The notes under the pieces: model-generated | Databases searched by the model: none | Told to the model about the DNA's origin: nothing | The model's input: only the letters and a program-made list of their open reading frames with translations | Origin: Methylobacter sp. | Lineage (GTDB): Bacteria; Pseudomonadota; Gammaproteobacteria; Methylococcales; Methylomonadaceae | DNA: 32,587 nucleotides | Assembly: GCA_030684815.1 (NCBI GenBank) | Contig: JAUXXQ010000147.1 | Span: 1-32,587 of the forward strand | Direction: 5' to 3' | Position numbers and translations under genes: made by a program | Part shown: positions 3,364 through 32,066 of the stretch, piece by piece | Numbering within the stretch: position 1 is the first letter of the stretch | Layout: each line of letters begins with the position of its first letter

Positions 3364-3644
3364 ATCGTTCCCATGCTCCAGCGTGGGAATGCAGCCATGG
3401 ACGCTCCGCGTCCCTTATCACTGCAGTGACTATTTCCGTCCAAAATAATTCCTTCTTTCGGGCTACCAACTTAAGCCGGGACAAACTGGGAACGCCAAGC
3501 CCCAGCTTGGCGCGAACACTCGCCAAGCTGGGGCTTGGCGTTCCCGGCCACCCATTTAAAACTGTCCCGGCTTAAGTTGGTAGCCTTCTTTCGCAACGCT
3601 GGAGCGTTGCCGGATGCATTCCCACGCCGGAGCGTGGGAACGAT
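3364..3644. repeat. Palindromic interspersed repeat, interrupted by a MITE
   Basis: The ends are inverted copies of each other: ATCGTTCCCATGCTCCAGCG at the left and CGTGGGAACGAT at the right, with CGCTGGAGCG and GGAGCGTGGG motifs inside. This looks like the class of short extragenic palindromes built on GTTCCCACGCTCCAGCGTGG. The 125-bp MITE at 3461-3585 lies within it, so the palindrome is the older insertion. Confidence 0.6.
3461..3585 (+). mobile_element. 125-bp MITE, copy A
   Basis: The element has 23-bp terminal inverted repeats starting GGCTACCAACTTAAGCCGGG. Inside is a perfect 25-bp stem (3488-3512 with 3521-3545) around an 8-nt loop. It is flanked by an 8-bp direct repeat TTCTTTCG (3453-3460 and 3586-3593), a clear target-site duplication. 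Nothing is encoded in it. The same unit recurs at 17214-17338 (inverted) and 31942-32066. An 8-bp duplication and GG-starting ends would suit mobilisation by an ISL3-like transposase, but no autonomous partner is visible here. Confidence 0.85.
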
Positions 3645-6604: not shown

Positions 6605-8395
6605 TTAATGCGTATGGTCGCATTCGGTCAGGAAGCTCAAGATGCTTTCCCGGTATTTGTAGTAATCGGGATGTTCCAGCAAGGCTTTGCGGCTGCGCGG
6701 CCTTGGCAGATCAATCTCTTGGATTTTACCGATTTTAGCATGCGGGCCGTTGGTCATCATCACTACCCGGTCGGCCAGCAATATGGCCTCGTCAACATCA
6801 TGGGTGACCACAATCGCGGTGACCTGGGTCCGCTCCCAGACTTCCATCAACACTTCCTGCAATTCCCAGCGGGTCAACGAATCCAGCATCCCGAACGGCT
6901 CATCCAATAACAGCAGCTTGGGTGACAAGGCAAAGGCGCGGGCAATGCCGACGCGCTGGCGCATACCGTTGGACAGATCGGCGGCTTTTTTGCGCAACGA
7001 GCCGCCCAAGCCGACGCGGGTCAAATAGTATTCAGCGATGCCGTTGCGTTCGCCTTCGGACGCATGGGGATAAACCTTATCGACGCCCAACATCACATTT
7101 TCAAACGCAGTCAGCCAAGGAAACAAACTGGGTGATTGGAACACCACGCCGCGATCGGGGCCGGCACTGTCTATTTCCTTGTTGTCCAGGATAATGACGC
7201 CCTCGGATATGCTGTTTAAACCGGCTGTCATCGACAACACGGTGGATTTGCCGCAGCCGGAGTGGCCGATGATAGAGATGAATTCGCCTTTTTTCATCTT
7301 CAGGTCAAAACCGTCGACAACCTTGACCGAGCTGTTGCCGTCGGGTGTCGGGTAGGTTTTGCATAATTTTGAAAACTCCAGATAACGCGGGCGGGGCAAA
7401 CTCTCTGCCCAGGGTTTTATCGCCAGGGAGGGTGTGTATGCCGCTAGCCTGTCGGGAACAGGCGCGGCGATAACCGAATAAGTACGATTCCAATCCACGT
7501 CAGTGTTCGGCTTTACTTTAGGCAAAATGATTTTATTGCTCGCCGTCCCTGTATTTTTCTCGATGCCGATGTCCATCAAATAACGGGTAATTTCGGCGCG
7601 CAAGCGTTTAAATTCAGGGTTATGGTTGAGCGCAGTGCGGTCTCGGGGACGTTCGATATTGACGGCAAAATCCGGGCCGAAAGTCGCATCGGGGCCGGGA
7701 TTCAGCGGGATGACCCGGTCTGCCATGTAGATGGCTTCGTCGACATCGTTGGTGATCAGGATGACGGTTTTCTTTTCCTGCGCCCAGATTTGCAAAATCT
7801 CATCCTGCAAATTGCCGCGCGTCAACGCATCCAGTGCGCTAAGCGGTTCGTCGAGCAATAAAATATCTGGGCTGGCGGCCAAGGCGCGGGCGACATTGAC
7901 CCGTTGTCTCATGCCGCCGGACAGTTCGGCCGGTTTTTTGTCCATCGCCGCGCCAAGGTTGACCATCCTGACGTATTTTTCGGTATGCGCCCGACGCTGT
8001 TCGGCTGGCCAGTGTTTAAAAATCTGATCGACCGCCAACGCCACGTTTTCAAACACGGTCAGCCACGGCATCAGCGAATAGTTCTGGAACACCACGCCGC
8101 GATCCGGCCCCGGTTCGGTAATCGGCGATCCTTGTTTCAGCACTTCGCCGCTGTCGGCCTGTATCAAACCGGCAATGGTTGAAATCAGCGTGGTTTTGCC
8201 GCTGCCGGAAAAACCGACGATGGCAACAAACTCGCCTTCTTTTATACTCAGGTTGATGTTGCTCAGAATCGAATTCGCGCCATAGCTTTTGCAGACCGCT
8301 TTTAATTCCAGCAAAGGCTGATAGGCGTCATTCGAGGGCTCTGTTGGGTTGTTAGTCATGCGTTTATTGACAATGTTAAGGTTTACGACTGACAT
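6605..8395 (-). CDS. nrtCD: Nitrate ABC transporter ATP-binding protein, NrtC-NrtD fusion
   Basis: This 596-residue protein contains two complete ABC ATPase domains. Domain 1 (about residues 27-265) has Walker [10 protein letters not shown], signature LSGGMRQRV, Walker B ILLLDEP and a TND in place of the usual H-loop THD. It is followed by [14 protein letters not shown] and IERPRDR, features I associate with the cyanobacterial NrtC/CmpC ATPase. Domain 2 (about 345-590) has [25 protein letters not shown] and an intact THD, as in NrtD. A linker of about 80 residues joins them. The NrtA-like solute-binding domain that ends cyanobacterial NrtC is absent. The start at 8395 has AGGAG six bases upstream, and the gene follows nrtB by 13 bp. 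It energises nitrate import through NrtB. Confidence 0.9.
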
Positions 8396-9690: not shown

Positions 9691-11088
9691 CTATCCGTCA
9701 ACCACCTTGCCGCCGACCACTTTTTGTTTGCCTTTAAGACCGATAGGAAATTGGGTCAGATAATCGTTAGGCTTGGTGGCATCAAAAGTCACACCGTCAA
9801 TAAAGTCAGCGTTGGGCGGCTTGATGCCGGTTTCGCTGTCAGCCGGAAAATCGCTGGCTTTCGCTTTGCCTTCGGCAATCAGTGCATTGGCCGCCGCCCT
9901 GTAGATGTCAGGGCGATACACTTTTTTAGCGGTTTCCAGATACCACTCATCCGGTTTGTATTCGTTAATTTGTCCCCAGCGGCGCATTTGGGTCAGGCTC
10001 CAGACCGCATCGCTGTAATAAGGGTAAGAACCGTTATGACGGAAAAAAACGTTGAAATCGGGCAAGTCGCGCTTGTCGCCTTTTTCATATTCGAAAGTGC
10101 CGTTCATGCTATTGGCGATGACTTCGTAATCAGCGCCGACATATTGTTTTTGCGACAGCATTTCCACGCCTTCGTTGCGATTTTTGTTGTTTTCCGCATC
10201 CAGCCACATTGAAGCGCGGATCAAGGCTTTGATGACCGCTTTGTGGGTATTGGGGTTTTTCTCCGCCCATTCTTTGTTCACGCCGAAGATTTTTTCCGCG
10301 CTGTTTTTCATCAATTCATAATCGCTGATCACCGGTACGCCGATGCCTTTAATCACCGCTTGCTGGTTCCACGGTTCGCCGACGCAGTAGCCGACAATCG
10401 TGCCCGAATCCATAGTCGAGGGCATTTGCGGCGGCGGCGTGACTGACAAAATGGCTTCGGCATCAATATTGCCGGAGGTATCTTCAGGCGGCGCATAAAA
10501 GCCGGGCTTAATGCCGCCAGCCGCCAGCCAGTAACGCAGTTTCATATTGTGGGTACCGACCGGAAAGGTCATCGCCATGTTAAACGGCTTTCCTGCCGCT
10601 TTGTATTTTTCCAGCACCGGCTTTAAGGTATCGGCGCTGATCGGATGCACCGGCTTGCCGTCTTTGACCGGAATCTGCGGCTTCATTTGATTCCAGACAT
10701 CGTTGGATACCGTTATCGCATCGCCGTTTAAGGTCATAGTGAATGCGCTGACAATATCGGCCTTGGTGCCGTAACCGATGGCCGCGCCAAAAGGTAGCGT
10801 TGCCAGCATGTGCGCGCCGTCCAGTTCGCCGCTGACCACACGATCCAATAACACTTTCCAGTTGGCTTGCGCCTCGACTTGTACGGAAAGGCCTTCGTCT
10901 TCGAAATAACCTTTTTCCAAAGCAACCGCCAACGGCGCCATATCGGTTAGTTTAATGAAGCCGAGTTTAAGGCTGTCTTTTTCCAGCTTTTCAGCGGAAT
11001 AAACGGTGACTGAAAAGGTTAACAGCGACGCCGCTACAACCAGTGCCGTAATCCGTTTTTTAATAGTAAATCGTCCGGTTTGTTTCAT
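9691..11088 (-). CDS. nrtA: Nitrate ABC transporter substrate-binding protein
   Basis: This 465-residue protein is of the NrtA/CmpA family and binds nitrate in the periplasm for NrtB-NrtCD. It has an N-terminal signal peptide (basic KKR then a hydrophobic run, cleavage probably after VYSA). The mature part begins with LKLGFIKLTDMAPLAVALEK, and typical family segments follow: VSGELDGAHMLATLPFGAAI, TFPVGTHNMKLRYWLAAGGI, YCVGEPWNQQAV. The signal peptide separates it from NasS, the cytoplasmic NrtA-like sensor. GAGGT precedes the start. It is the first gene of the leftward operon, about 30 bp after the leader terminator, so its expression should depend directly on antitermination. Confidence 0.93.
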   Translation of the reverse strand: MKQTGRFTIKKRITALVVAASLLTFSVTVYSAEKLEKDSLKLGFIKLTDMAPLAVALEKGYFEDEGLSVQVEAQANWKVLLDRVVSGELDGAHMLATLPFGAAIGYGTKADIVSAFTMTLNGDAITVSNDVWNQMKPQIPVKDGKPVHPISADTLKPVLEKYKAAGKPFNMAMTFPVGTHNMKLRYWLAAGGIKPGFYAPPEDTSGNIDAEAILSVTPPPQMPSTMDSGTIVGYCVGEPWNQQAVIKGIGVPVISDYELMKNSAEKIFGVNKEWAEKNPNTHKAVIKALIRASMWLDAENNKNRNEGVEMLSQKQYVGADYEVIANSMNGTFEYEKGDKRDLPDFNVFFRHNGSYPYYSDAVWSLTQMRRWGQINEYKPDEWYLETAKKVYRPDIYRAAANALIAEGKAKASDFPADSETGIKPPNADFIDGVTFDATKPNDYLTQFPIGLKGKQKVVGGKVVDG

Positions 11089-11117: not shown

Positions 11118-11170
11118 AAAAAAAAAGCGTCACCCTACGGAATACGCACTGTACTCAGCCGGGTAGACGC
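11118..11170 (-). terminator. Intrinsic terminator in the nrtA leader
   Basis: Read on the minus strand, GCGTCTACCC pairs with GGGTGACGC (one bulged T), enclosing further pairing, and is directly followed by nine T residues (A-run at 11118-11126 on the plus strand). It lies between the two-hairpin ANTAR target and the nrtA start, in the position expected for a regulated attenuator. Confidence 0.85.
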
Positions 11171-11181
11171 CTTTGTCTGTT

Positions 11182-11228
11182 TTGGTCCAGCATTGGACCA
11201 AGATTTTTTAGTGCTCCGCCATTGGAGC
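11182..11228 (-). promoter_or_regulatory. ANTAR target: two hexaloop hairpins (P1 and P2)
   Basis: On the minus strand P1 (11228-11213) is GCTCC, loop AATGGC, GGAGC. P2 (11201-11182) is TTGGTCC, loop AATGCT, GGACCAA. Both loops are six bases with A at position 1 and G at position 4, which is the known ANTAR recognition pattern, and 11 nt separate the hairpins. The terminator follows P2 by 11 nt. A nasT-type ANTAR gene lies about 1.2 kb away. Known nas leaders of Klebsiella and Azotobacter work in this way: regulator binding prevents termination when nitrate is present. Confidence 0.88.
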
Positions 11229-11243
11229 CTCTGTTGGATTAAA

Positions 11244-11259
11244 AGCAATCGTTATGCCA
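11244..11259 (-). promoter_or_regulatory. Sigma-54 (-24/-12) promoter for the nrtA operon
   Basis: The minus strand reads TGGCATAACGATTGCT, a full match to TGGCAYRNNNNTTGCW with the required ten bases between GG and GC. Transcription would begin near 11233, just upstream of hairpin P1, so the whole antitermination leader is transcribed. This implies NtrC-type nitrogen control of initiation. Confidence 0.8.
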
Positions 11260-11473: not shown

Positions 11474-11508
11474 GTTGCTTGAACAACGCCACTAAAACAA
11501 ACAATTTG

Positions 11509-12426
11509 ATGAAAACATTTATTAAAGTCACGGAAATATGGATACCGACAAAAGACCGCACCCGTTTGGAGTTTAGCGCCGGGCTGTATGGCTCTTTGCA
11601 TGAATTTCGCGTCGCCAGCGAAAAGGAATCTTTCGCTTATGATGAAGGTTTGCCCGGCAAAGCGTGGGCTGCCGGTCATCCTGTGGTATTGACCGAATTC
11701 GATCAGTCTTATTTCAAGCGGACAACATCGGCTAAAAAAGCCGGTTTAACTTGCGCGATTGCCATGCCGATTTTTTCCGGCGAATTTTTAATGGCCGTGG
11801 TGGTTTTTTTGTGCGGGGACGACCAGCATCATGCCGGAGCCATAGAAGTGTGGAGTAACAGTTCGGGGAACAATGCCGATTTGGCGGTTGTTGACGGCTA
11901 TTACGGCACGCTGGATGATTTTGCCAGCCTATCCAGAAGCATGACCTTCTGCAAAGGTGCCGGTTTGCCGGGGCAAGTATGGCAACAAGGTATGCCGATG
12001 CTGATAGAAGACCTGGGCGTGTCGCCGACATTCATCCGTAGCGCAGAGGCCAAAAAGGCCGGAATCACGACGGCGCTTGGCATCCCGATTTCGGTTGCGG
12101 CACAGCAAGTTTATATTATGACTTTCCTGTCGGCTAAAGCCACGCCGATTGCCCGGCGCATACAAATATGGGCGCCGGATGCCAGCGGTCAGAATCTGGT
12201 ATGCCGTTCGGGATATAGCAAACAAAATGATGAATTGGCGGAAATCTTTGAGGCTGTTTCATTCCGCAAAGGTGAAGGGCTATTGGGCCGAGTCTGGTTG
12301 ACCGGCGTCCCGCTTATCAGGAATAACGCAAAAACGGTTCTAGGGGAGGGCGGGGTCAATTCCATGCTTGCCCTGCCTGTTATAGAAGGCGGGACGTTAA
12401 AAGCCGTGGTTGCTTTTTTATTTTAG
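11509..12426 (+). CDS. Tandem GAF-domain protein, probable nitrate/nitrogen sensor partner
   Basis: This 305-residue soluble protein appears to be two diverged GAF-like repeats. The first (about 1-145) contains EIWIPTKDRTRLEF, GLPGKAWAAGHPVVL, SAKKAGLTCAIAMPIF and AVVVFLCG. The second (about 190-305) contains IQIWAPDASGQNLVCRSGY, KGEGLLGRVWLTGVPLI, LALPVIEGGTLKAVVAFLF. A middle segment (GLPGQVWQQGMPMLI, EAKKAGITTALGIPI) repeats the same theme, so there may be two and a half units. There is no output domain. An in-frame TTG at 11479 is an alternative start; neither start has a clear ribosome site. It is divergent from nrtA and its 3' end overlaps the ANTAR regulator gene by 9 bp. A role as the signal-sensing partner of NasT, replacing NasS, is inferred from position. 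Confidence 0.75.
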   Translation: MKTFIKVTEIWIPTKDRTRLEFSAGLYGSLHEFRVASEKESFAYDEGLPGKAWAAGHPVVLTEFDQSYFKRTTSAKKAGLTCAIAMPIFSGEFLMAVVVFLCGDDQHHAGAIEVWSNSSGNNADLAVVDGYYGTLDDFASLSRSMTFCKGAGLPGQVWQQGMPMLIEDLGVSPTFIRSAEAKKAGITTALGIPISVAAQQVYIMTFLSAKATPIARRIQIWAPDASGQNLVCRSGYSKQNDELAEIFEAVSFRKGEGLLGRVWLTGVPLIRNNAKTVLGEGGVNSMLALPVIEGGTLKAVVAFLF

Positions 12427-12993
12427 CAGCTCGGCCATGGCGATAACGTTTTTCGCCATTTCGCCGATGGTAATCGTGCGATCCATCGCCAGTTTTCTCA
12501 GGGTGTGATAAGCATCGTCTTCGCTAAAACCTCGGGTTTTGATCAAGATGCCTTTTGCCCGGTCGATGAGTTTGCGTTCTTCCAGCCGGGCTTTGGTTTT
12601 TTCCAATTCGTTGTTAAGCCGCTGTTGCCGGTTAAATCTGGCCACGGCGACCTTGATAATACTGTCAATACGGCTGATTTCCAGGCCGTTAATAAGATAG
12701 GCGCTAACGTCGGTATCAATAACCTGATTAATGCTATCTAGGCTATCGTCGGCGGTAAACATAATAATGGGTAGCGGATGGTTCTGTTTAATAAAATGAA
12801 GCTGGTGTAAATATTTTTGCGGACTGTCGATCTGATAAATAATCAGGTTTGGGTTGTGCTTGGTTATTAATGTATCAATATCAACTTCAGGCGTTGTCGC
12901 ACAGACGACCGCATAGCCGTTACTGAGCAATTGTTTTGCTAATAACGGCTTAGTCGCTTCATCTTCGATAAGTAATATATTGAGTGCGTTCAT
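12418..12993 (-). CDS. nasT: ANTAR-domain response regulator, NasT-type antiterminator
   Basis: This 191-residue protein has an N-terminal receiver-like domain (ILLIEDE, LPIIMFTADDS) and a C-terminal ANTAR RNA-binding domain (ARLEERKLIDRAKGILIKTRG, DDAYHTLRKLAMDRTITIGEMA), joined by a coiled coil (NRQQRLNNELEKTK). The usual phosphoacceptor Asp is absent: the strand reads NLIIYQID, with Gln at that position, so it is probably not phosphorylated. The start at 12993 gives a standard receiver N-terminus; the upstream ATG at 13053 would add 20 unlikely residues. Expected role: bind the two hexaloop hairpins in the nrtA leader and allow read-through. NasT is normally held by NasS, which I do not find here. 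Confidence 0.88.
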   Translation of the reverse strand: MNALNILLIEDEATKPLLAKQLLSNGYAVVCATTPEVDIDTLITKHNPNLIIYQIDSPQKYLHQLHFIKQNHPLPIIMFTADDSLDSINQVIDTDVSAYLINGLEISRIDSIIKVAVARFNRQQRLNNELEKTKARLEERKLIDRAKGILIKTRGFSEDDAYHTLRKLAMDRTITIGEMAKNVIAMAELLK

Positions 12994-13242: not shown

Positions 13243-15780
13243 ATGAGCGAAAAACAAACATTGGTTGTCATTGGCAACGGCATGGTTGGCCAGCATTTTC
13301 TGGCTAACTTGGTCGACAGCCCCCTTAAAGAGCAGTACGAAATCATCACTTTTTGCGAAGAGCCTAGGGCGGCATACGACCGGGTGCATTTGTCGTCTTT
13401 TTTCACCGGCACCACAGCACAGGAATTGTCATTAGTCGAAGACGGTTTTTTTGAGCGGCACGGCATTACCCTTCACTTAGGCGACAAGGCCGCCAGCATC
13501 GACCGGACGGCCAAAACCGTGACCTCGGCAAAAGGTGTCAATATTGCTTACGACAAGCTGGTGTTGGCGACCGGTTCTTATCCATTCGTGCCGCCCGTTC
13601 CTGGGCATGACCGGGCGCAATGTCTGGTTTACCGCACCATTGAGGATCTGGAAGCCATGGCCGCTGCGGCCAAAACCGGCAAGATCGGCACCGTGGTCGG
13701 CGGCGGCTTGTTGGGGCTTGAAGCGGCCAAGGCGTTAATGGATTTAGGTTTAAAAACTCATGTGGTCGAATTTGCGCCGCGCTTAATGGCGGTGCAGCTC
13801 GATGACGCAGGCGGCGCGATGCTGCGGCTCAAGATTGAAAATCTGGGCGTGACCGTGCATACCGGCAAAAATACCAGCATCATTACCGACGGCGAGCACT
13901 GCGTGAACAAGATGTGTTTTGCCGACGGCGAAGAATTGGAAACCGACATTGTGCTGTTTTCGGCGGGGATTCGTCCACGCGACGAACTGGCCAGGGCTTG
14001 CGGGTTGGAAGTCGGACAGCGCGGCGGTATCATCATCGATAACCAATGCCGCACCTCCGACCCCAGCATTTATGCTATCGGCGAATGCGCCTTGTGGAAT
14101 GGCATGATTTACGGATTGGTCGCGCCGGGTTATACGATGGCGCGCACCGTCGTGGCCGATTTGGCAGGCAATGACGCCAGTTTTACCGGCGCGGACATGA
14201 GCACCAAGCTGAAACTGATGGGCGTTGATGTTGCCAGCATCGGCGACGCACACGCCAAAACCCAGGGCGCGATGGTTTACACTTACCAAAATGGTGCAAG
14301 CGAAGTGTATAAACGCCTGGTAGTCAGCCAGGATAAAAAGCAACTGCTCGGCGCGGTGCTGGTCGGCGATGCGTCGGGTTACAGCACTTTATTGCAATAT
14401 TGTCTGAACGGCATCGAGCTGCCGGAGAATCCCGATGCACTGATATTACCGCACCGTTCCGACGAATCGGTCGGCTTAGGCCCGGATGCGTTGCCCGCTT
14501 CGGCGCAAATTTGTTCCTGTTACGACGTGACCAAAGGCGCGATTTGTTCGGCGATTGAAGGCGGCTGCATGACCATGGGCGCGTTAAAAGCCGAAACCAA
14601 AGCCGCAACCGGTTGCGGCGGCTGTTCCGCGTTGCTTAAGTCGGTGCTGGATTCGGAATTGTCGAAACAGGGCTTTGAAGTCAATACCGATATTTGCGAG
14701 CATTTTGCCTATACCCGGCAGGATCTTCATAACTTGATTCGGGTTGAAGGGATTAAAACTTTTGCCGACTTGCTGCACAAACACGGCAAAGGCCACGGCT
14801 GCGAAATCTGCAAACCGACTATCGGTAATATCCTCGCTTCGCAATGGAATGAGCATATCTTGGAAAAAGACCATTTAGGCCTACAAGACACCAACGACAC
14901 CTATTTAGCCAATATGCAAAAAGATGGCACTTATTCGGTCGTGCCGCGCATCACCGGCGGCGAAATCAGCCCCGACATGCTGATTGCGTTGGGGCAGGTC
15001 GGGAAAAAATACAAGCTGTACACCAAAATCACCGGCGGCCAGCGCGTGGACTTATTTGGTGCGCGGGTCGATCAATTGCCGCATATCTGGAAAGAATTGA
15101 TAGACGCCGGTTTTGAATCAGGCCATGCTTACGGCAAATCCTTGCGCACGGTTAAATCCTGCGTCGGCAGCACTTGGTGCCGTTATGGCATCGATGACAG
15201 CGTGGGGCTGGCAATAGAACTGGAAAACCGCTACAAAGGCCTGCGCTCCCCGCATAAAATCAAATTCGCGGTCTCCGGTTGCACAAGGGAATGCGCCGAA
15301 GCGCAAGGCAAAGATGTTGGCGTTATCGCCACTGAAAACGGTTGGAACCTGTATGTCTGCGGCAACGGCGGCATGAAACCGCGCCATGCGGATTTATTCG
15401 CCACCGGTTTGGACAAGCCTACTTTGATTAAAACTATCGACCGCTTTTTGAGCTTTTATGTGCGCACCGCCGACCGTCTGCAACGCACCTCGGTTTGGAT
15501 GGAAAACATGGAAGGCGGCTTGGATTATTTAAAATCGGTAGTCATTGAAGATAAACTGGGGCTGTGCGATCAACTGGAGCAGCAAATGCAGTATGTGATC
15601 GACACCTATCAATGCGAATGGAAGACCGCGATTGAAGATGAAGCCAAACTCAAACGCTTCCGGCATTTCATTAACAGCGACCAGCCCGATGACAATATTG
15701 TTTTTGTTGAAGAGCGCGGCCAGATTAGACCTGCCGACGAAACCGAGCGGAAACATTTTAAACTGATGGAGATTGCATAA
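13243..15780 (+). CDS. nirB: Nitrite reductase (NADH), large subunit
   Basis: This 845-residue cytoplasmic enzyme reduces nitrite to ammonium. Domains in order: FAD Rossmann fold (VVIGNGMVGQHF), NAD fold (VVGGGLLGLEAAKAL), FAD region IYAIGECALWNG, BFD-like [2Fe-2S] domain (CSCYDV ... ATGCGGC at about residues 425-470), then the ferredoxin-like and siroheme/[4Fe-4S] domains. The cluster ligands are in CVGSTWC and SGCTRECAEAQGKD. The length fits the family. The start at 13243 has GGGG upstream; the in-frame TTG at 13198 falls inside the sigma-54 promoter and is rejected. nirD begins at the base after the nirB stop, so the two are coupled. Confidence 0.97.
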   Translation: MSEKQTLVVIGNGMVGQHFLANLVDSPLKEQYEIITFCEEPRAAYDRVHLSSFFTGTTAQELSLVEDGFFERHGITLHLGDKAASIDRTAKTVTSAKGVNIAYDKLVLATGSYPFVPPVPGHDRAQCLVYRTIEDLEAMAAAAKTGKIGTVVGGGLLGLEAAKALMDLGLKTHVVEFAPRLMAVQLDDAGGAMLRLKIENLGVTVHTGKNTSIITDGEHCVNKMCFADGEELETDIVLFSAGIRPRDELARACGLEVGQRGGIIIDNQCRTSDPSIYAIGECALWNGMIYGLVAPGYTMARTVVADLAGNDASFTGADMSTKLKLMGVDVASIGDAHAKTQGAMVYTYQNGASEVYKRLVVSQDKKQLLGAVLVGDASGYSTLLQYCLNGIELPENPDALILPHRSDESVGLGPDALPASAQICSCYDVTKGAICSAIEGGCMTMGALKAETKAATGCGGCSALLKSVLDSELSKQGFEVNTDICEHFAYTRQDLHNLIRVEGIKTFADLLHKHGKGHGCEICKPTIGNILASQWNEHILEKDHLGLQDTNDTYLANMQKDGTYSVVPRITGGEISPDMLIALGQVGKKYKLYTKITGGQRVDLFGARVDQLPHIWKELIDAGFESGHAYGKSLRTVKSCVGSTWCRYGIDDSVGLAIELENRYKGLRSPHKIKFAVSGCTRECAEAQGKDVGVIATENGWNLYVCGNGGMKPRHADLFATGLDKPTLIKTIDRFLSFYVRTADRLQRTSVWMENMEGGLDYLKSVVIEDKLGLCDQLEQQMQYVIDTYQCEWKTAIEDEAKLKRFRHFINSDQPDDNIVFVEERGQIRPADETERKHFKLMEIA

Positions 15781-17213: not shown

Positions 17214-17338
17214 GGCTACCAACTTAAGCCGGGACAGTTTTAAATGGGTGGCCGGGAACGCCAAGCCCCAGCTTGGCGAGTGTTCGCGCCAAGCTGGGGC
17301 TTGGCGTTCCCAGTTTGTCCCGGCTTAAGTTGGTAGCC
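17214..17338 (-). mobile_element. 125-bp MITE, copy B (inverted)
   Basis: This is the reverse complement of copy A at 3461-3585, with the same GGCTACC ends and 25-bp internal stem. The flanks (ACATTTAA and GTGTATAG) show no target duplication, so a rearrangement may have followed insertion. It lies between phzF and the convergent rtcB gene, where its hairpin could stop transcripts from both sides. Confidence 0.85.
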
Positions 17339-18987: not shown

Positions 18988-19935
18988 GTGGAACAACTGA
19001 CCGATTTAAAAGCCATACTGCATTCAAAACGCGCCAACATCTACTATCTGGAAAAATGCCGGGTCATGCAAAAAGATGGCCGCGTACTCTATCTGACAGA
19101 GGCCAAAGAGCAAAACACCTACTGGAACATCCCCATTGCCAACACCACCGTCATCCTGCTCGGCACCGGCACTTCCATTACGCAAGCCGCGATGCGCATG
19201 TTAGCCAGCGCCGGGGTGTTAGTGGGCTTTTGCGGCGGCGGAGGTTCGCCGCTGTTTTCCGGCAGCGAAATCGAATGGCTCAACCCGCAAAGCGAATACC
19301 GCCCCACCGAATACGTGCAAGGCTGGCTGCAATTCTGGTTTGATGACAGCAAACGACTTCATGTCGCCAAAACCTTTCAACAAGCCCGCATCACTTATTT
19401 GCAACGCATTTGGGACAAAGACCGCGACTTAAAAGCCGAGAATTTTTCAGCCGCCAACTTGGAAATAAGTTCCGCGTTAACCGGCTATAGCGCCCAAGTC
19501 GACAGCGCCGTAAAAGTCGGCGACCTGTTGCTTAGGGAAGCCGCACTCACCAAACAACTGTACCGCTACGCCGCCAAAACCAGCCAACTGGGCGACTTTG
19601 TCCGCGAACGCGAAGCCACCGACCTTGCCAACGGCTTTTTAAACCACGGCAACTATTTAGCCTACGGCCTTGCCGCCACCACGCTTTGGGTGCTGGGCAT
19701 ACCGCACGGGTTCGCCGTCATGCACGGCAAAACCCGGCGTGGCGCCTTGGTATTCGACATTGCCGATTTAATCAAAGACGCCATCGTACTGCCCTGGGCC
19801 TTTGTCTGCGCCAAAGAAAAAATGACCGAACAGGAATTCCGCCAGCAAATCCTGCAAAAATTCACCGAACACAAAGCGCTGGATTTCATGTTTGAACAAG
19901 TCAAACAACAAGCCACACGGGATGATTGGTCATGA
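18988..19935 (+). CDS. cas1: CRISPR-associated endonuclease Cas1, type I-F
   Basis: This 315-residue integrase captures new spacers together with the Cas2 part of the next gene. The sequence is of the I-F Cas1 type: LKAILHSKRANIYYLEKCRV at the N-terminus, ILLGTGTSITQAAMRMLASAG in the beta domain, then the alpha-helical metal-binding core with RREATDLANGFLNHGNYLAYG-like and GFAVMHGKTRRGALVFDIAD segments (Glu, His and Asp ligands). It starts with GTG at 18988 behind a strong GGGGAGGGG site. Its stop overlaps the cas3 start (ATGA). The gene is GC-rich with C-ending codons, like the chromosomal nas genes and unlike the rest of the cas operon. Confidence 0.96.
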   Translation: MEQLTDLKAILHSKRANIYYLEKCRVMQKDGRVLYLTEAKEQNTYWNIPIANTTVILLGTGTSITQAAMRMLASAGVLVGFCGGGGSPLFSGSEIEWLNPQSEYRPTEYVQGWLQFWFDDSKRLHVAKTFQQARITYLQRIWDKDRDLKAENFSAANLEISSALTGYSAQVDSAVKVGDLLLREAALTKQLYRYAAKTSQLGDFVREREATDLANGFLNHGNYLAYGLAATTLWVLGIPHGFAVMHGKTRRGALVFDIADLIKDAIVLPWAFVCAKEKMTEQEFRQQILQKFTEHKALDFMFEQVKQQATRDDWS

Positions 19936-22900
19936 TGGTCACCTTCGTCAGCCAATGTCAGAAAAAAGCCCTAAACCGCACCCGCCGCGTACTCGACGCC
20001 TTCGCCAACCGCATCGGCGACAACACCTGGCAAACCATCATCACCGAAGACGGCCTGATCGCCGTGAAAACCTTATTGCGCAAAACCGCCAGCAAGAATA
20101 CCGCCGTGTCCTGCCATTGGATTCGGTCGAGAAGCCGCAGCGAGTTGGTTTGGATTGTTGGCAATCGCAGGCGGTTTAATGCTGAGGGGATTGTGCCGGT
20201 GAATAGTACACGGATTAATTTCAGTCATCGTGAATGGGAGAAAGGTTGGCACACAACCGAAATTATTGCCATCGCTTCCGCTATTTCTGGTTTATTCCAT
20301 GACTTGGGCAAAGCCAATGATTTATTTCAAGATAAACTCAACCCAGAAATTAAGGGAAAAAGATTTGAGCCTTATCGACATGAGTGGGTGTCATTACGTT
20401 TATTTCAGGCTTTTGTTGCGGGACAGAGCGACCAAGAATGGCTAACGCAATTGGCACATGTTGACGACGCATTAGAAACACAAATACTACAAAAAATAGT
20501 GGTCGATAACCCTTTGTCGAATGAATTCAATAACCCTTTCGATGCATTGCCGGCGTTCGCAAAATTAGTAGCTTGGCTGGTGGTTTCACATCACCGCTTA
20601 CCGGTTTATCCAAAACAAGGCGAAACAGAACCAAGGCTTGACCAACCCAATACATGGATAAACCAGGCTTTTGATGATTCTTGGAATTCGCTCAATAGCC
20701 AGAATCATGAATGGGAGGAACGTATTTTAAAAGCCAATTGGACATTTTCCAATCACACACCGTTAATTAGCAAAACCTGGCAAAAAAAGGCCAGTGAACT
20801 ATCAAAACGGGCTTCGACTTGCCAAGGTTTGATGGAAATTGATTGGCTTAGCCTGCCATTTGTGATGCACTTGTCCCGTCTGGCATTGATGCTGGCTGAC
20901 CATCACTATTCTGCCAAAGATGCCCAAATCCATTGGCAAGATGCCAATTATCAGGCTTACGCCAATACCGACAAACAACATCAGCTCAAGCAAAAACTGG
21001 ATGAGCATAATGTCGGCGTAAGTCAGCACGCTTTTGAATTCACATTAAAATTAAGACGTTTACGCGAAGAAATGCCCCCGCTTTCCCCCAATAGAACCTT
21101 AGCCAAAGGCCTGAAAGAAGATAAAGAGCCTTGGCAAACCAAAGCTTATGAAGCGGCTCAACAGGTTCAAGGCCAAGTCAGAGAACAAGGTTTCTTCGGT
21201 ATCAATATGGCGTCGACCGGAAAAGGAAAAACCTTGGCGAATGCCAGAATTATGTATGGTTTAGCTGATGAGTTGGAAGGTTGCCGCTTTAGTGTCGCCT
21301 TGGGTTTGCGGACATTGACCTTGCAAACAGGTGAAGCGCTGCAAGAACGCTTGGAACTCGATAAAACTGAAATTGCCACGCTGATTGGTTCTCAGGCCAT
21401 TTTGCGCCTTAACCAAATTAACCAAGGCAAACAAATCAATGAGAACCCGTTTGCGGCACGAGGCAGCGAAAGTTTGGATATGGGCTTGGATGATGACGGT
21501 TTTGACGTGTTTTATGGCACGGAACTTTATGAAGGCCAACTAGAAAAGTGGTTTCCAGACAATCAGAAAGCCAAAAAACTGTTACACGCGCCCATATTGG
21601 TCAGCACAATCGACCATTTAACACCAGCAACCGAAGGTGTGCGTGGCGGCAGGCAGATTGTGCCGATGTTGCGTCTGCTTACATCCGATCTGGTTTTAGA
21701 TGAACCGGACGAGTTTGACTTGAACGACTTGCCAGCGTTGGCACGTTTGGTAAATTGGGCTGGCATGTTAGGTGCAAACGTGTTGGTGTCCACGGCAACC
21801 ATGCCACCCGCATTGGCTTATGCCTTGTTTGAAGCCTATCAAGAAGGACGAAAAGCATTTAATGCGGCCACTATTCAACCGGATGTACAAAAACCGGTTG
21901 TTTGCGCTTGGTTTGATGAATTCAGTGCGCAAACATCAGAACATCAAAATATACAAAGCTTTATTAAAGCGCATGATGAATTCATCCAAAAGCGTATTAC
22001 CAAGCTCAGTCAAGACAAATTGGTCTTCCGCAAAGCAAAATTACTGGAAATTGCCGCGACAACCGATTTATCACCACTCAACACCATGAGCAAGGTAATT
22101 CGGCAGGGCATGATCGCCTTGCACCAAGCCCATCACCAACAACACGTATCCGGTAAAAAAATCTCTATCGGCTTGGTACGCATAGCTAATATTAACCCTT
22201 TAGTGGCAATTGCCAGGTTGCTGTATGCCAATCCTGCGCCGGAAAACATCCGAATTCACTACTGCGTTTATCACAGCCAATACCCCCTGGCGCAACGGTC
22301 ATTTATTGAAAGCAAATTAGACCAAGTCCTCAACCGCAAAGACCAAGACGTCATTTGGTGTTTTCCCGAAATCCAACACGCCTTAAACAATTATCCAGAA
22401 CAAAACCAGCTTTTTGTGGTATTGGCAACGTCGGTGGCAGAAGTAGGGCGCGATCATGATTACGATTGGGCAATTGCCGAACCCAGTTCCATGCGCTCAA
22501 TCATTCAAATAGCCGGACGCATACAACGGCATCGAAAGCAAACACCTGAAACCGAGAATTTTTATATTCTGGCTAAAAACCATAAGGCTTTAAAAGGTAA
22601 AGAGATTGCTTATGAAAAACCAGGATTTGAGGCTAAAAACCGAAAACTAAGTAGCCACGATTTGCATGACATTCTGGAAGAAACTCAATTTTCAGTACCG
22701 AATGCTATTCCAAGTATTCAGCGACCTAAAAAATGGAAAGAAGCACCACCCTTTTCAAACTTAGTGACATTGGAACAAATAGCGTATCGTCAAAGGTTGT
22801 TTGAATATGCCGATGATAAAGGCCCAGCCAATCTATGGTGGAAAAATCAGGTGACATGGTGTGCCGAAATCCAGCGCAAACAACCTTTTAGGGCCTCAAT

Positions 22901-23219
22901 GCCTGATCAAGCGTACTGCCTTTATCTTGAAGAGGAAAACGATGAACCCGTTTGGCAAATCAAAAACGAGAACGCTAATCCCATTGAATATGAAACCGTA
23001 ACGGATATTACAAATATTGATTTAATGCCAGCCCAAGGCAATCAACCTTGGTTTGTCTTCGATATTCAAGCCCAATACGGGCATTTGGCAGAACAGATGG
23101 GGAAGCCTTTGAAATACATCAGTTATTGTTTTGGCGAAATACGCCTGCCTGATTATGAAAATCAAATAAATGAATGGTGTTACTCCCCAATGCTTGGGGT
23201 TTTTAAAGAAATTAAATAG
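19932..23219 (+). CDS. cas3: Cas2-Cas3 fusion nuclease-helicase, type I-F
   Basis: This 1095-residue protein is the hallmark I-F fusion. Residues 1-90 are Cas2-like (VTFVSQCQKKALNRTRRVLD, IGDNTWQTII, NTAVSCHWIRSRSRSELVWI). Then comes the HD nuclease (SGLFHDLGKANDLFQ). Then the SF2 helicase with Walker A-type MASTGKGKTLANARIMY, DEAD-box-like LVLDEPDEFD, VSTATMPPA, and motif VI-type AGRIQRHRK. It degrades Cascade-marked DNA and joins Cas1 in spacer capture. The start at 19932 overlaps the cas1 stop by 4 bp. GC content falls from about 65% in the row at 19981 to about 37% in the row at 20461, close to the end of the Cas2 domain. Confidence 0.96.
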   Translation: MMVTFVSQCQKKALNRTRRVLDAFANRIGDNTWQTIITEDGLIAVKTLLRKTASKNTAVSCHWIRSRSRSELVWIVGNRRRFNAEGIVPVNSTRINFSHREWEKGWHTTEIIAIASAISGLFHDLGKANDLFQDKLNPEIKGKRFEPYRHEWVSLRLFQAFVAGQSDQEWLTQLAHVDDALETQILQKIVVDNPLSNEFNNPFDALPAFAKLVAWLVVSHHRLPVYPKQGETEPRLDQPNTWINQAFDDSWNSLNSQNHEWEERILKANWTFSNHTPLISKTWQKKASELSKRASTCQGLMEIDWLSLPFVMHLSRLALMLADHHYSAKDAQIHWQDANYQAYANTDKQHQLKQKLDEHNVGVSQHAFEFTLKLRRLREEMPPLSPNRTLAKGLKEDKEPWQTKAYEAAQQVQGQVREQGFFGINMASTGKGKTLANARIMYGLADELEGCRFSVALGLRTLTLQTGEALQERLELDKTEIATLIGSQAILRLNQINQGKQINENPFAARGSESLDMGLDDDGFDVFYGTELYEGQLEKWFPDNQKAKKLLHAPILVSTIDHLTPATEGVRGGRQIVPMLRLLTSDLVLDEPDEFDLNDLPALARLVNWAGMLGANVLVSTATMPPALAYALFEAYQEGRKAFNAATIQPDVQKPVVCAWFDEFSAQTSEHQNIQSFIKAHDEFIQKRITKLSQDKLVFRKAKLLEIAATTDLSPLNTMSKVIRQGMIALHQAHHQQHVSGKKISIGLVRIANINPLVAIARLLYANPAPENIRIHYCVYHSQYPLAQRSFIESKLDQVLNRKDQDVIWCFPEIQHALNNYPEQNQLFVVLATSVAEVGRDHDYDWAIAEPSSMRSIIQIAGRIQRHRKQTPETENFYILAKNHKALKGKEIAYEKPGFEAKNRKLSSHDLHDILEETQFSVPNAIPSIQRPKKWKEAPPFSNLVTLEQIAYRQRLFEYADDKGPANLWWKNQVTWCAEIQRKQPFRASMPDQAYCLYLEEENDEPVWQIKNENANPIEYETVTDITNIDLMPAQGNQPWFVFDIQAQYGHLAEQMGKPLKYISYCFGEIRLPDYENQINEWCYSPMLGVFKEIK

Positions 23220-27649: not shown

Positions 27650-29522
27650 GTTCCCTGCCGCACAGGCAGCTTAGAAATAGCGAGCCGACACAACATGCTC
27701 CTGATGGACGTTCCCTGCCGCACAGGCAGCTTAGAAATTTTAAAGCGCGTAACTGCTTGACTGTAATCGGTTCCCTGCCGCACAGGCAGCTTAGAAAAAG
27801 TAGGAGAATGTTTGTCTATGGCTGGGCGGGTTCCCTGCCGCACAGGCAGCTTAGAAATCTTTGCGCTTACTGAGTAAAGCAGCGCCGAAGTTCCCTGCCG
27901 CACAGGCAGCTTAGAAAATTAAACCCTCGGCGACAGTCCAGGGCAACAGGTTCCCTGCCGCACAGGCAGCTTAGAAAGACTATCGAACCGGCTAGGGGCG
28001 AGGTGGCAAGTTCCCTGCCGCACAGGCAGCTTAGAAAAACACAAGCGGATGACGGTAACGTGCTACCAAGTTCCCTGCCGCACAGGCAGCTTAGAAAGCT
28101 GGAACAGGTGCATTGGCAGGCGCATTGGTGTTCCCTGCCGCACAGGCAGCTTAGAAAACAAAGACTTTAAATAACCAGCACTTAGCTGGGTTCCCTGCCG
28201 CACAGGCAGCTTAGAAATCGCCAATAAGCGGCAAAGAAGAACCGGCAAAGTTCCCTGCCGCACAGGCAGCTTAGAAAGGTATAGCAGACCGTTCAAAAAG
28301 CGGCTCTTGGTTCCCTGCCGCACAGGCAGCTTAGAAAAACTATCACCGTGGATTCGTCGGTGCAGGTGTGTTCCCTGCCGCACAGGCAGCTTAGAAATTG
28401 AGCCGTCCCGGCAACCTCCTTGTTTTCATGTTCCCTGCCGCACAGGCAGCTTAGAAACCGTTCCGGCAATTCAATCGCCGATGTGATGCGTTCCCTGCCG
28501 CACAGGCAGCTTAGAAAATTGGCGCGGGCGCTTGGGTTGCGGTGGATGGGTTCCCTGCCGCACAGGCAGCTTAGAAAACCTTGGGTAAGGTTTCGCGGTG
28601 GCTATGTTTGTTCCCTGCCGCACAGGCAGCTTAGAAATGTCGATAGCCTCGGTCACTGTCCATGGACCGGTTCCCTGCCGCACAGGCAGCTTAGAAAAGT
28701 ATTGTCAAAACCCAAAGCGCAAGACGTTAGTTCCCTGCCGCACAGGCAGCTTAGAAAGTATGCGGCCGGGCGCATGGACAAGGCGGCTTGTTCCCTGCCG
28801 CACAGGCAGCTTAGAAATTTGGGGGATAAATAGCGTTCGGCATCCGACCGTTCCCTGCCGCACAGGCAGCTTAGAAATGGACGCGATTTTGCAAACAAGG
28901 CACTGTTTCCGTTCCCTGCCGCACAGGCAGCTTAGAAATCTGGGCTAGTCGCTGTGGCTTGCTCATTTATGTTCCCTGCCGCACAGGCAGCTTAGAAATC
29001 TATCGGTACTTGGTGCCGGGGCTTGAGCCCGTTCCCTGCCGCACAGGCAGCTTAGAAAACAGAAACGATCGCAAATGAATTTCGCGAAAAGTTCCCTGCC
29101 GCACAGGCAGCTTAGAAAAGCCGCGTCCAAACGTGACCCAGCTTTTTAGGGTTCCCTGCCGCACAGGCAGCTTAGAAATGGCGCATGAAATCGACCTGAT
29201 GGATTGCAGCGTTCCCTGCCGCACAGGCAGCTTAGAAAAAAAGCCAGATTAACCACGCCCACATCGTATTGTTCCCTGCCGCACAGGCAGCTTAGAAAAT
29301 GCGCGTATAACTCTTTTCCATCGTCAATGTGTTCCCTGCCGCACAGGCAGCTTAGAAAATAAACAAGAGATAAATTTATGACACTCAGATGTTCCCTGCC
29401 GCACAGGCAGCTTAGAAAACATGCCAGTCGATGCGGGCGGTAATGTGCTGGTTCCCTGCCGCACAGGCAGCTTAGAAATGCATTTCAATGGCGACCGCTA
29501 TCCTTTCCAGGTTCCCTGCCGC
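27650..29522 (+). CRISPR. Type I-F CRISPR array: 31 full repeats, 31 spacers, truncated last repeat
   Basis: Repeats are 28 bp, start GTTCCCTGCCGCACAGGCAG and end CTTAGAAA, and appear identical throughout. They contain the Csy4 hairpin CTGCC-GCACA-GGCAG and the usual eight-base 5' handle. The fifth base is C where the common I-F repeat has A. The period is 60 bp (32-bp spacers) from 27650 to 28850; the spacer at 28878-28910 is 33 bp, shifting later repeats by one. The last full repeat starts at 29451. The final repeat at 29511 keeps only GTTCCCTGCCGC before phage-like DNA begins. The handle orientation puts the leader at the left and transcription rightward. Repeat uniformity suggests a recently active array. 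Confidence 0.98.
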
Positions 29523-31941: not shown

Positions 31942-32066
31942 GGCTACCAACTTAAGCAGGGACAAACTGGGAACGCCAAGCCCCAGCTTGGCGCGAACAC
32001 TCGCCAAGCTGGGGCTTGGCGTTCCCGGCCACCCATTTAAAACTGTCCCGGCTTAAGTGGGTAGCC
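31942..32066 (+). mobile_element. 125-bp MITE, copy C, inside tnpB
   Basis: Same orientation as copy A, with two base changes seen in the terminal repeats (CAGGGACA at the left, TGGG at the right). The flanks TTTAAGTT (31934-31941) and TTTAAATT (32067-32074) agree at 7 of 8 positions, a target duplication that has acquired one change. It lies at about codon 5 of the tnpB remnant. Confidence 0.85.

Follow-up and report, generated by a model that had tools for sequence, protein, structure and literature searches.

How NasT is controlled in a genome where NasS cannot be found is the question raised by this locus. The NasS-NasT systems of Paracoccus denitrificans and other bacteria combine NasT, a receiver-like plus ANTAR protein, with a nitrate-operon leader RNA and a separate sensor protein. 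The excerpts of PMC3795266 describe the Paracoccus NasS-NasT complex as taken apart by nitrate or nitrite, and expression as constitutive when NasS is missing. The window, by which we mean the whole 32,587-nucleotide stretch of Methylobacter sp. DNA analyzed here, contains a NasT and a hairpin leader of this type but no detected NasS partner. The sensor described elsewhere is the NrtA-like NasS, whereas here a triple-GAF protein, GAF3, is encoded beside nasT. The evidence leans toward GAF3 being the sensory, and probably inhibitory, partner of this NasS-less NasT. What was computed here is the lack of a detected NasS, the linkage and shared inheritance of GAF3 and NasT, the leader element, and the changed receiver of NasT.

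The original prediction had placed a protein of repeated GAF-like units between nrtA and nasT, overlapping nasT tail to tail by 9 bp, and the coordinates agree (Table 1). The TTG start at 11479 of the open reading frame listed for it gives way to a conserved ATG at 11509. Since Pfam matched GAF_2 in three stretches of the protein (E value, 3.8e-22; 79.4 bits against a cutoff of 28.6), GAF3 consists of three units, with limits at about residues 1-107, 106-209, and 209-305. The GAF model (39.0 bits; cutoff, 22.4) and the plant-factor domain bHLH-MYC_N (41.7 bits; cutoff, 30.2) also matched, a fourth match fell under its cutoff, and no output domain was among the Pfam matches, as predicted. The closest homologue in a scan of named genomes was 97% identical and came from a Methylobacter MAG. 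The product of nrtA, which scored about 297.3-299 bits against NMT1_2 in profile searches, begins with a stretch that, judged by eye from the translation, resembles a secretion signal; this is in keeping with the earlier view that the sole NrtA-like protein here has a signal peptide.

TABLE 1 Features of the nrtA-GAF3-nasT-nirB region of the window and transporter-nasT stretches of three relatives
Feature	Coordinates	Strand	Description and basis
nrtA	9691..11088	-	Nitrate-binding-protein-like; first gene behind the leader; NMT1_2, translation
Intrinsic terminator	11118..11174	-	Run of nine U; folding
Leader hairpin P2	11165..11178	-	Hexaloop AAAGGC; 3' half doubles as 5' arm of the terminator
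Leader middle hairpin	11182..11201	-	Hexaloop AATGCT
Leader hairpin P1	11213..11228	-	Hexaloop AATGGC
GAF3 gene	11509..12426	+	305 aa, three GAF units; Pfam, 16-sequence alignment, AlphaFold2 model
GAF3/nasT overlap	12418..12426		Tail to tail, 9 bp; from sequence
nasT	12418..12993	-	191 aa, receiver-like domain plus ANTAR; Pfam, NasT alignment, tree
nirB	13243-15780	+	GAF3 gene and nasT sit between nrtA and nirB
Transporter-nasT stretch, L113	6193-8251		No GAF3 or NasS alongside
Transporter-nasT stretch, L112	2288-4397		No GAF3 or NasS alongside
Transporter-nasT stretch, L115	5968-8138		No GAF3 or NasS alongside

Elsewhere in the window are three near-identical copies (3470-3560, 17240-17330 on the opposite strand, and 31950-32042) of a 90-bp element that contains a long inverted repeat. 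A CRISPR array with 31 matches to CRISPR-DR4 repeats occupies 27650-29478, and the open reading frames at 18988-19935 and 19926-23219 look cas1- and cas3-like by eye.

We searched the whole genome from which the window comes (4.29 Mb in 235 contigs, 99.25% complete) for ANTAR proteins and for NasS. The only ANTAR match was the nasT product of the window. NMT1_2 gave two matches, the second of which lies on a different contig and, at 24.2 bits, falls under the cutoff of 24.7. Because nrtA is the only match above that cutoff, the genome has no detected NasS, and the prediction of a NasT without NasS stands. The same was true of all 21 genomes found to carry GAF3 among the relatives described below, this one included: no NMT1_2 match in them was NasS-like by score, size, and neighborhood. 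NMT1_2 matched nothing in two of the 21, the incomplete genomes G003 and G026, and a second match in G011 was 27% identical to a NasS and adjoins other ABC-transporter genes.

The NasT of the window matches ANTAR at 69.2 bits (cutoff, 27.3), its receiver scores 26.8 bits, under the cutoff of 30.2, and Pfam found no NIT domain in its 191 residues. We assembled 97 distinct NasT rows, set aside 8 that belong to a divergent ANTAR type, and built a tree from the remaining 89. Sixty-eight of these form one group (SH-aLRT, 95), composed of 3 transporter-linked rows and the 65 rows of the window NasT clade, which has a support value of 94 by itself. By this grouping, the NasT-GAF3 pairing has a single origin. 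Several relatives also encode a divergent second ANTAR protein (L110, L114, and L244-L249) in which the receiver-like Asp region is intact and which lies distant from nitrate genes in the stretches viewed.

The phospho-acceptor position of the receiver, which we assigned from the alignment by our own reading, is Gln in the window NasT. NasT rows linked to NasS have Asp there in 12 of 13 cases and the ensuing Arg-Asp in all 13. Asp is missing from 60 of the 61 rows linked to GAF3 without NasS (55 Asn, 2 Gln, and 3 other residues), which amounts to few events rather than sixty, since the rows are related. It is present in 3 and lacking in 9 of the 12 rows with neither NasS nor GAF3 as a neighbor, and the 3 transporter-linked rows all have Asn. 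The NasS-type signature is retained in the four rows whose operon contains NasS as well as GAF3. The receiver change therefore tracks the loss of NasS and not the presence of GAF3.

That a split GAF/ANTAR pair exists as a genetic module in Methylococcales is well supported. The scan of named genomes covered 76 loci, and most Methylococcales other than the Methylobacter clade have nasT followed on the same strand by the GAF3 gene, often with nrtA-nrtB-nrtC behind. The gap between the two genes is 11-43 bp in 57 locus entries, in which some genomes are counted twice; two further entries, both of them views of G411, have a 4-bp overlap. Counted as distinct NasT rows, 49 have a same-strand GAF3 pair, plus G411. 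The pair is separated in the Methylobacter clade, being convergent, several kilobases apart, or on different contigs, and both genes are nonetheless retained in every genome except G006.

We then looked across 61 genomes (this one and 60 relatives), 37 of them in the window's family. GAF3 was present in 21, ANTAR in 44, and NMT1_2 (E value, 1e-10) in 52. When the 37 family genomes were sorted by gene maps and the NasT tree, GAF3 was found in 21 of the 22 with the window NasT clade and in 0 of the remaining 15 (Fisher P = 1.7e-9, uncorrected for kinship). Those 15 comprise 2 genomes with a NasS-type NasT, 3 with a transporter-linked NasT, 6 with nrtA and no ANTAR, and 4 that lack both this NasT and nrtA, including one (G015) with the divergent second ANTAR type. 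The single exception among the 22, G006 (L111 and L240), has an intact three-hairpin leader; GAF3 was not found there, and a contig gap is possible.

Kinship was addressed with a tree of NrtA, NrtB, and NrtC from 30 of the 37 genomes, on which NasT presence differs in six independent pairs separated by supported branches. GAF3 follows NasT in 5.9 of the six (mean of 200 pairings) and never goes the opposite way (sign test, median P = 0.031; range, 0.031-0.063). Counting all branches raises the number of pairs to eight, and a tree of NrtA only is weak here, with just two supported contrasts (P = 0.5). In a distance test over 26 loci, NasT and GAF3 remained correlated given NrtA, NrtB, and NrtC (partial r = 0.49; 0 of 2,000 permutations), the values for GAF3-NrtC and NasT-NrtB being 0.41 and 0.25. 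These correlations fit co-inheritance of NasT and GAF3 and are no proof of contact. Part of the shared loss of the two genes may reflect linked deletion, which can mimic functional co-loss.

ANTAR targets, as published in the excerpts of PMC3369931, consist of two hexaloop hairpins with A at position 1 and G at position 4. The nrtA leader of the window folds into three hairpins and a terminator (z = -4.5). A tandem ANTAR-type pair was found in 48 of 60 distinct nrtA upstream stretches, against a mean of 0.06 in shuffles that preserved base composition only. No such target was found in the nirB leader of the window, and 3 of 36 nirB upstream stretches had a tandem pair. The Rfam narK RNA scored 24.6 bits on the nrtA leader (11164-11258), well under its gathering score of 43.2, so we make no claim from it, although a comparison of the narK family with ANTAR targets may be worthwhile.

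The number of hairpins varies with the type of NasT. All three are present in 17 of 20 readable family leaders with the window NasT clade (G018, G025, and G031 being the exceptions), in 1 of 2 transporter-linked family leaders, and in 13 of 16 further chosen loci. Neither of the two NasS-type family genomes has three; both have P1 and P2 only, and by eye the middle stem remains with its loop reduced to five and three bases. None of the six genomes with nrtA and no NasT has three either, five having none and G022 having P2 only. Inspection by eye showed that the element is gone from G002, G009, G016, and G017 and that loop and stem bases are altered in G022, evidence that the absence of nasT from these partly incomplete genomes is genuine. 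An alignment restricted to three-hairpin leaders, holding 29 of the 31 (L283 and L142 omitted), paired in 95.5% of cells and showed covariation, with 37 two-sided changes against 14.4 in shuffled alignments; sliding the partners by 1-3 columns lowered pairing to 44.3% or less.

GAF3 also extends beyond the window's family. It occurs in 5 of 369 Gammaproteobacteria and 11 of 398 Pseudomonadota, this genome being counted in both sets. All 11 of those Pseudomonadota have an ANTAR protein, compared with 155 of the 398, but this counts for little because six of the eleven belong to one genus. Among 18 GAF3 genomes tested outside Methylococcales, ANTAR was present in 14 and had no match in 4 (those of L191, L192, L193, and L196; completeness not given). 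Three loci of another class (G705, G731, and G798) have the order nasT-nasS-nrtA-nrtB-nrtC-GAF3-nirB-like, and G411 has a NasS-like stretch within the nrtC reading frame, followed by nasT and GAF3. These four operons, from three families, rule out a restriction of GAF3 to settings that lack NasS. A 754-residue frame at L251 (5861-8125) has an NrtC-like start and a NasS match of 50% identity over the matched part, and it is possibly an NrtC-NasS fusion ahead of nasT and GAF3.

Paralogues in Methylococcales (L174, L183, and L187) and copies in Campylobacterota (L191 and L193) also lie in nif clusters, and the copy at L192 lies within a nitrate cluster; the gene names around these copies are our reading of the proteins. 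The second GAF3 gene of L174, L183, and L187, around 7001-7906, sits between glutaredoxin-like and flavodoxin-like genes. One genome, G001, has both the nas-type and the nif-cluster copies, and in a genus with large genomes GAF3 was away from nitrate genes at the three loci viewed of six. On the GAF3 tree, the copies beside NasS-NasT branch off as a deep clade of their own, and the nas copies of Methylococcales group together with one unplaced relative, L186. The GAF3 family as a whole is not devoted to NasT. The predicted co-occurrence with nasT thus holds within the window's family, but homologues are also found in genomes without ANTAR, in nif clusters, and as lone copies, so that the objection that GAF homologues might occur free of nasT or nitrate genes is partly borne out.

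This distribution would also suit a different role, in which GAF3 is an accessory of nitrogen operons, serving for example a reductase, a kinase, or electron transfer independently of NasT, and NasT is controlled in some other way. The nif copies, the nitrate cluster of L192 without ANTAR, and the operons where GAF3 stands alongside an intact nasT-nasS pair would all fit such a role. So would the conservation of Arg71, Arg177, and Cys102 in at least 84 of 85 GAF3 sequences across all gene settings, which suggests that a core function is probably common to them. Set against this, GAF3 tracks the NasT clade and not nrtABC, since none of the six nrtA genomes without NasT has it, and it is missing from the two family genomes with a NasS-type NasT. 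We consider an accessory role unlikely. The original prediction that the GAF protein is the sensor for NasT gains from the lack of NasS, the tight pairing, and the six contrasts, and loses from a family that is not tied to NasT. The best reading of these comparisons is that one member of a wider nitrogen-linked GAF family may have become the sensory partner of a NasS-less NasT.

If GAF3 does act on NasT, its signal might be nitrogen or carbon status, for example 2-oxoglutarate, rather than nitrate. The AlphaFold2 model of GAF3 (pLDDT, 85.2; pTM, 0.88) matched GAF folds in Foldseek, with tandem-GAF phosphodiesterases and cyclases at the top and the nitrate receptor NreA (6k2h; rank 30) and NitrOFF1 (rank 33) among those further down. 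The solved structures closest to it in sequence are Nlh1 and Nlh2, which are NifA-like GAF domains. In NifA of Azotobacter the GAF domain is a binder of 2-oxoglutarate (PMC9866876, excerpts), which makes this ligand a real alternative, and the GAF3 paralogues in nif clusters would suit it. Generic GAF similarity, however, does not tell the ligand, and the NasS-NasT and NasR systems described in the excerpts of PMC3795266 answer to nitrate and nitrite; we judge the alternative distinctly improbable. Sequence searches of solved structures with GAF3 found NreA weakly (E values, 0.82 and 0.26) or not at all. Membership of GAF3 in the NreA family was rejected on the NF038250 model (24.6 bits against a cutoff of 175), and no match to the nitrate site was demonstrable.

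By gene maps, 8 of the 61 genomes have a NasT with neither NasS nor GAF3 detected (G006, G027, G032, G033, G043, G048, G053, and G056), and in three of them (G027, G032, and G033) nasT follows, at a distance of 1-2 bp, a transporter gene that we read as MFS nitrate transporter-like. A transporter beside nasT is possibly a further kind of NasT partner. Although these genomes would suit the idea that GAF3 is a passenger kept by linkage while NasT works alone or with another partner such as a transporter, that idea is very unlikely, given that Methylobacter keeps both genes even when they lie several kilobases from each other or on separate contigs and that a NasT of the same kind left without a partner would escape regulation, as the constitutive expression upon NasS loss in Paracoccus indicates.

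Returning to GAF3 as the partner of NasT, we infer direct GAF3-NasT binding, the sign of control, and the ligand, and the system, by analogy with NasS-NasT of Paracoccus, might work as follows. When the signal is absent, GAF3 would hold NasT through its pseudo-receiver; when it is present, NasT would be released. Nitrate or nitrite is our first guess for the signal, since the systems described so far respond to these ions and NreA provides a precedent for a GAF protein as nitrate receptor (PMC9310391 and PMC8139620, excerpts). Freed NasT would bind the nrtA leader at its A1/G4 hexaloop hairpins, and this would stabilize P2 against the terminator and allow transcription of nrtA and the genes behind it.

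Four known systems come closest to this scheme. NasS-NasT differs not only in its sensor but also in that the NasT described here has lost the receiver Asp and the Arg-Asp motif and that the leader in most of its clade has three hairpins instead of two. NasR of Klebsiella likewise acts by ANTAR antitermination of a nitrate operon on a hairpin leader, but its NIT nitrate-sensing domain and its ANTAR domain belong to a single polypeptide (PMC3795266, excerpts). Staphylococcal NreA is a free-standing protein that has the GAF fold in common with GAF3 and keeps its partner kinase, NreB, in check when nitrate is absent (PMC8139620, excerpts), although it is a single GAF unit and its partner is a kinase. 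In AmiC-AmiR, a separate small-molecule binder holds an ANTAR protein until the ligand comes; there the signal is amides, and the excerpts of PMC3795266 do not describe AmiC as a GAF protein. According to the excerpts of PMC3369931, from 2012, combinations of ANTAR with a GAF or PAS domain were at that time uncharacterized, and no publication describing a GAF protein as partner of NasT turned up in our search of a library with few subscription journals.

More tentatively, this locus may represent a third architecture of nitrate-responsive antitermination, with a free triple-GAF sensor, a separate ANTAR protein whose receiver lacks the Asp, and a three-hairpin leader, all of which would have changed together upon the loss of NasS, one sensor family then serving both nitrate use and nitrogen fixation, as the paralogue in nif clusters suggests. 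It would be a natural case, common in methanotrophs, of a GAF sensor that is a separate protein and comes with the RNA target of its ANTAR partner. Some close relatives have NasS-NasT in its place and others no longer possess the system, so the role of the partner can be tested directly by comparing sister strains. Nitrate control of this kind bears on how methanotrophs acquire nitrogen.
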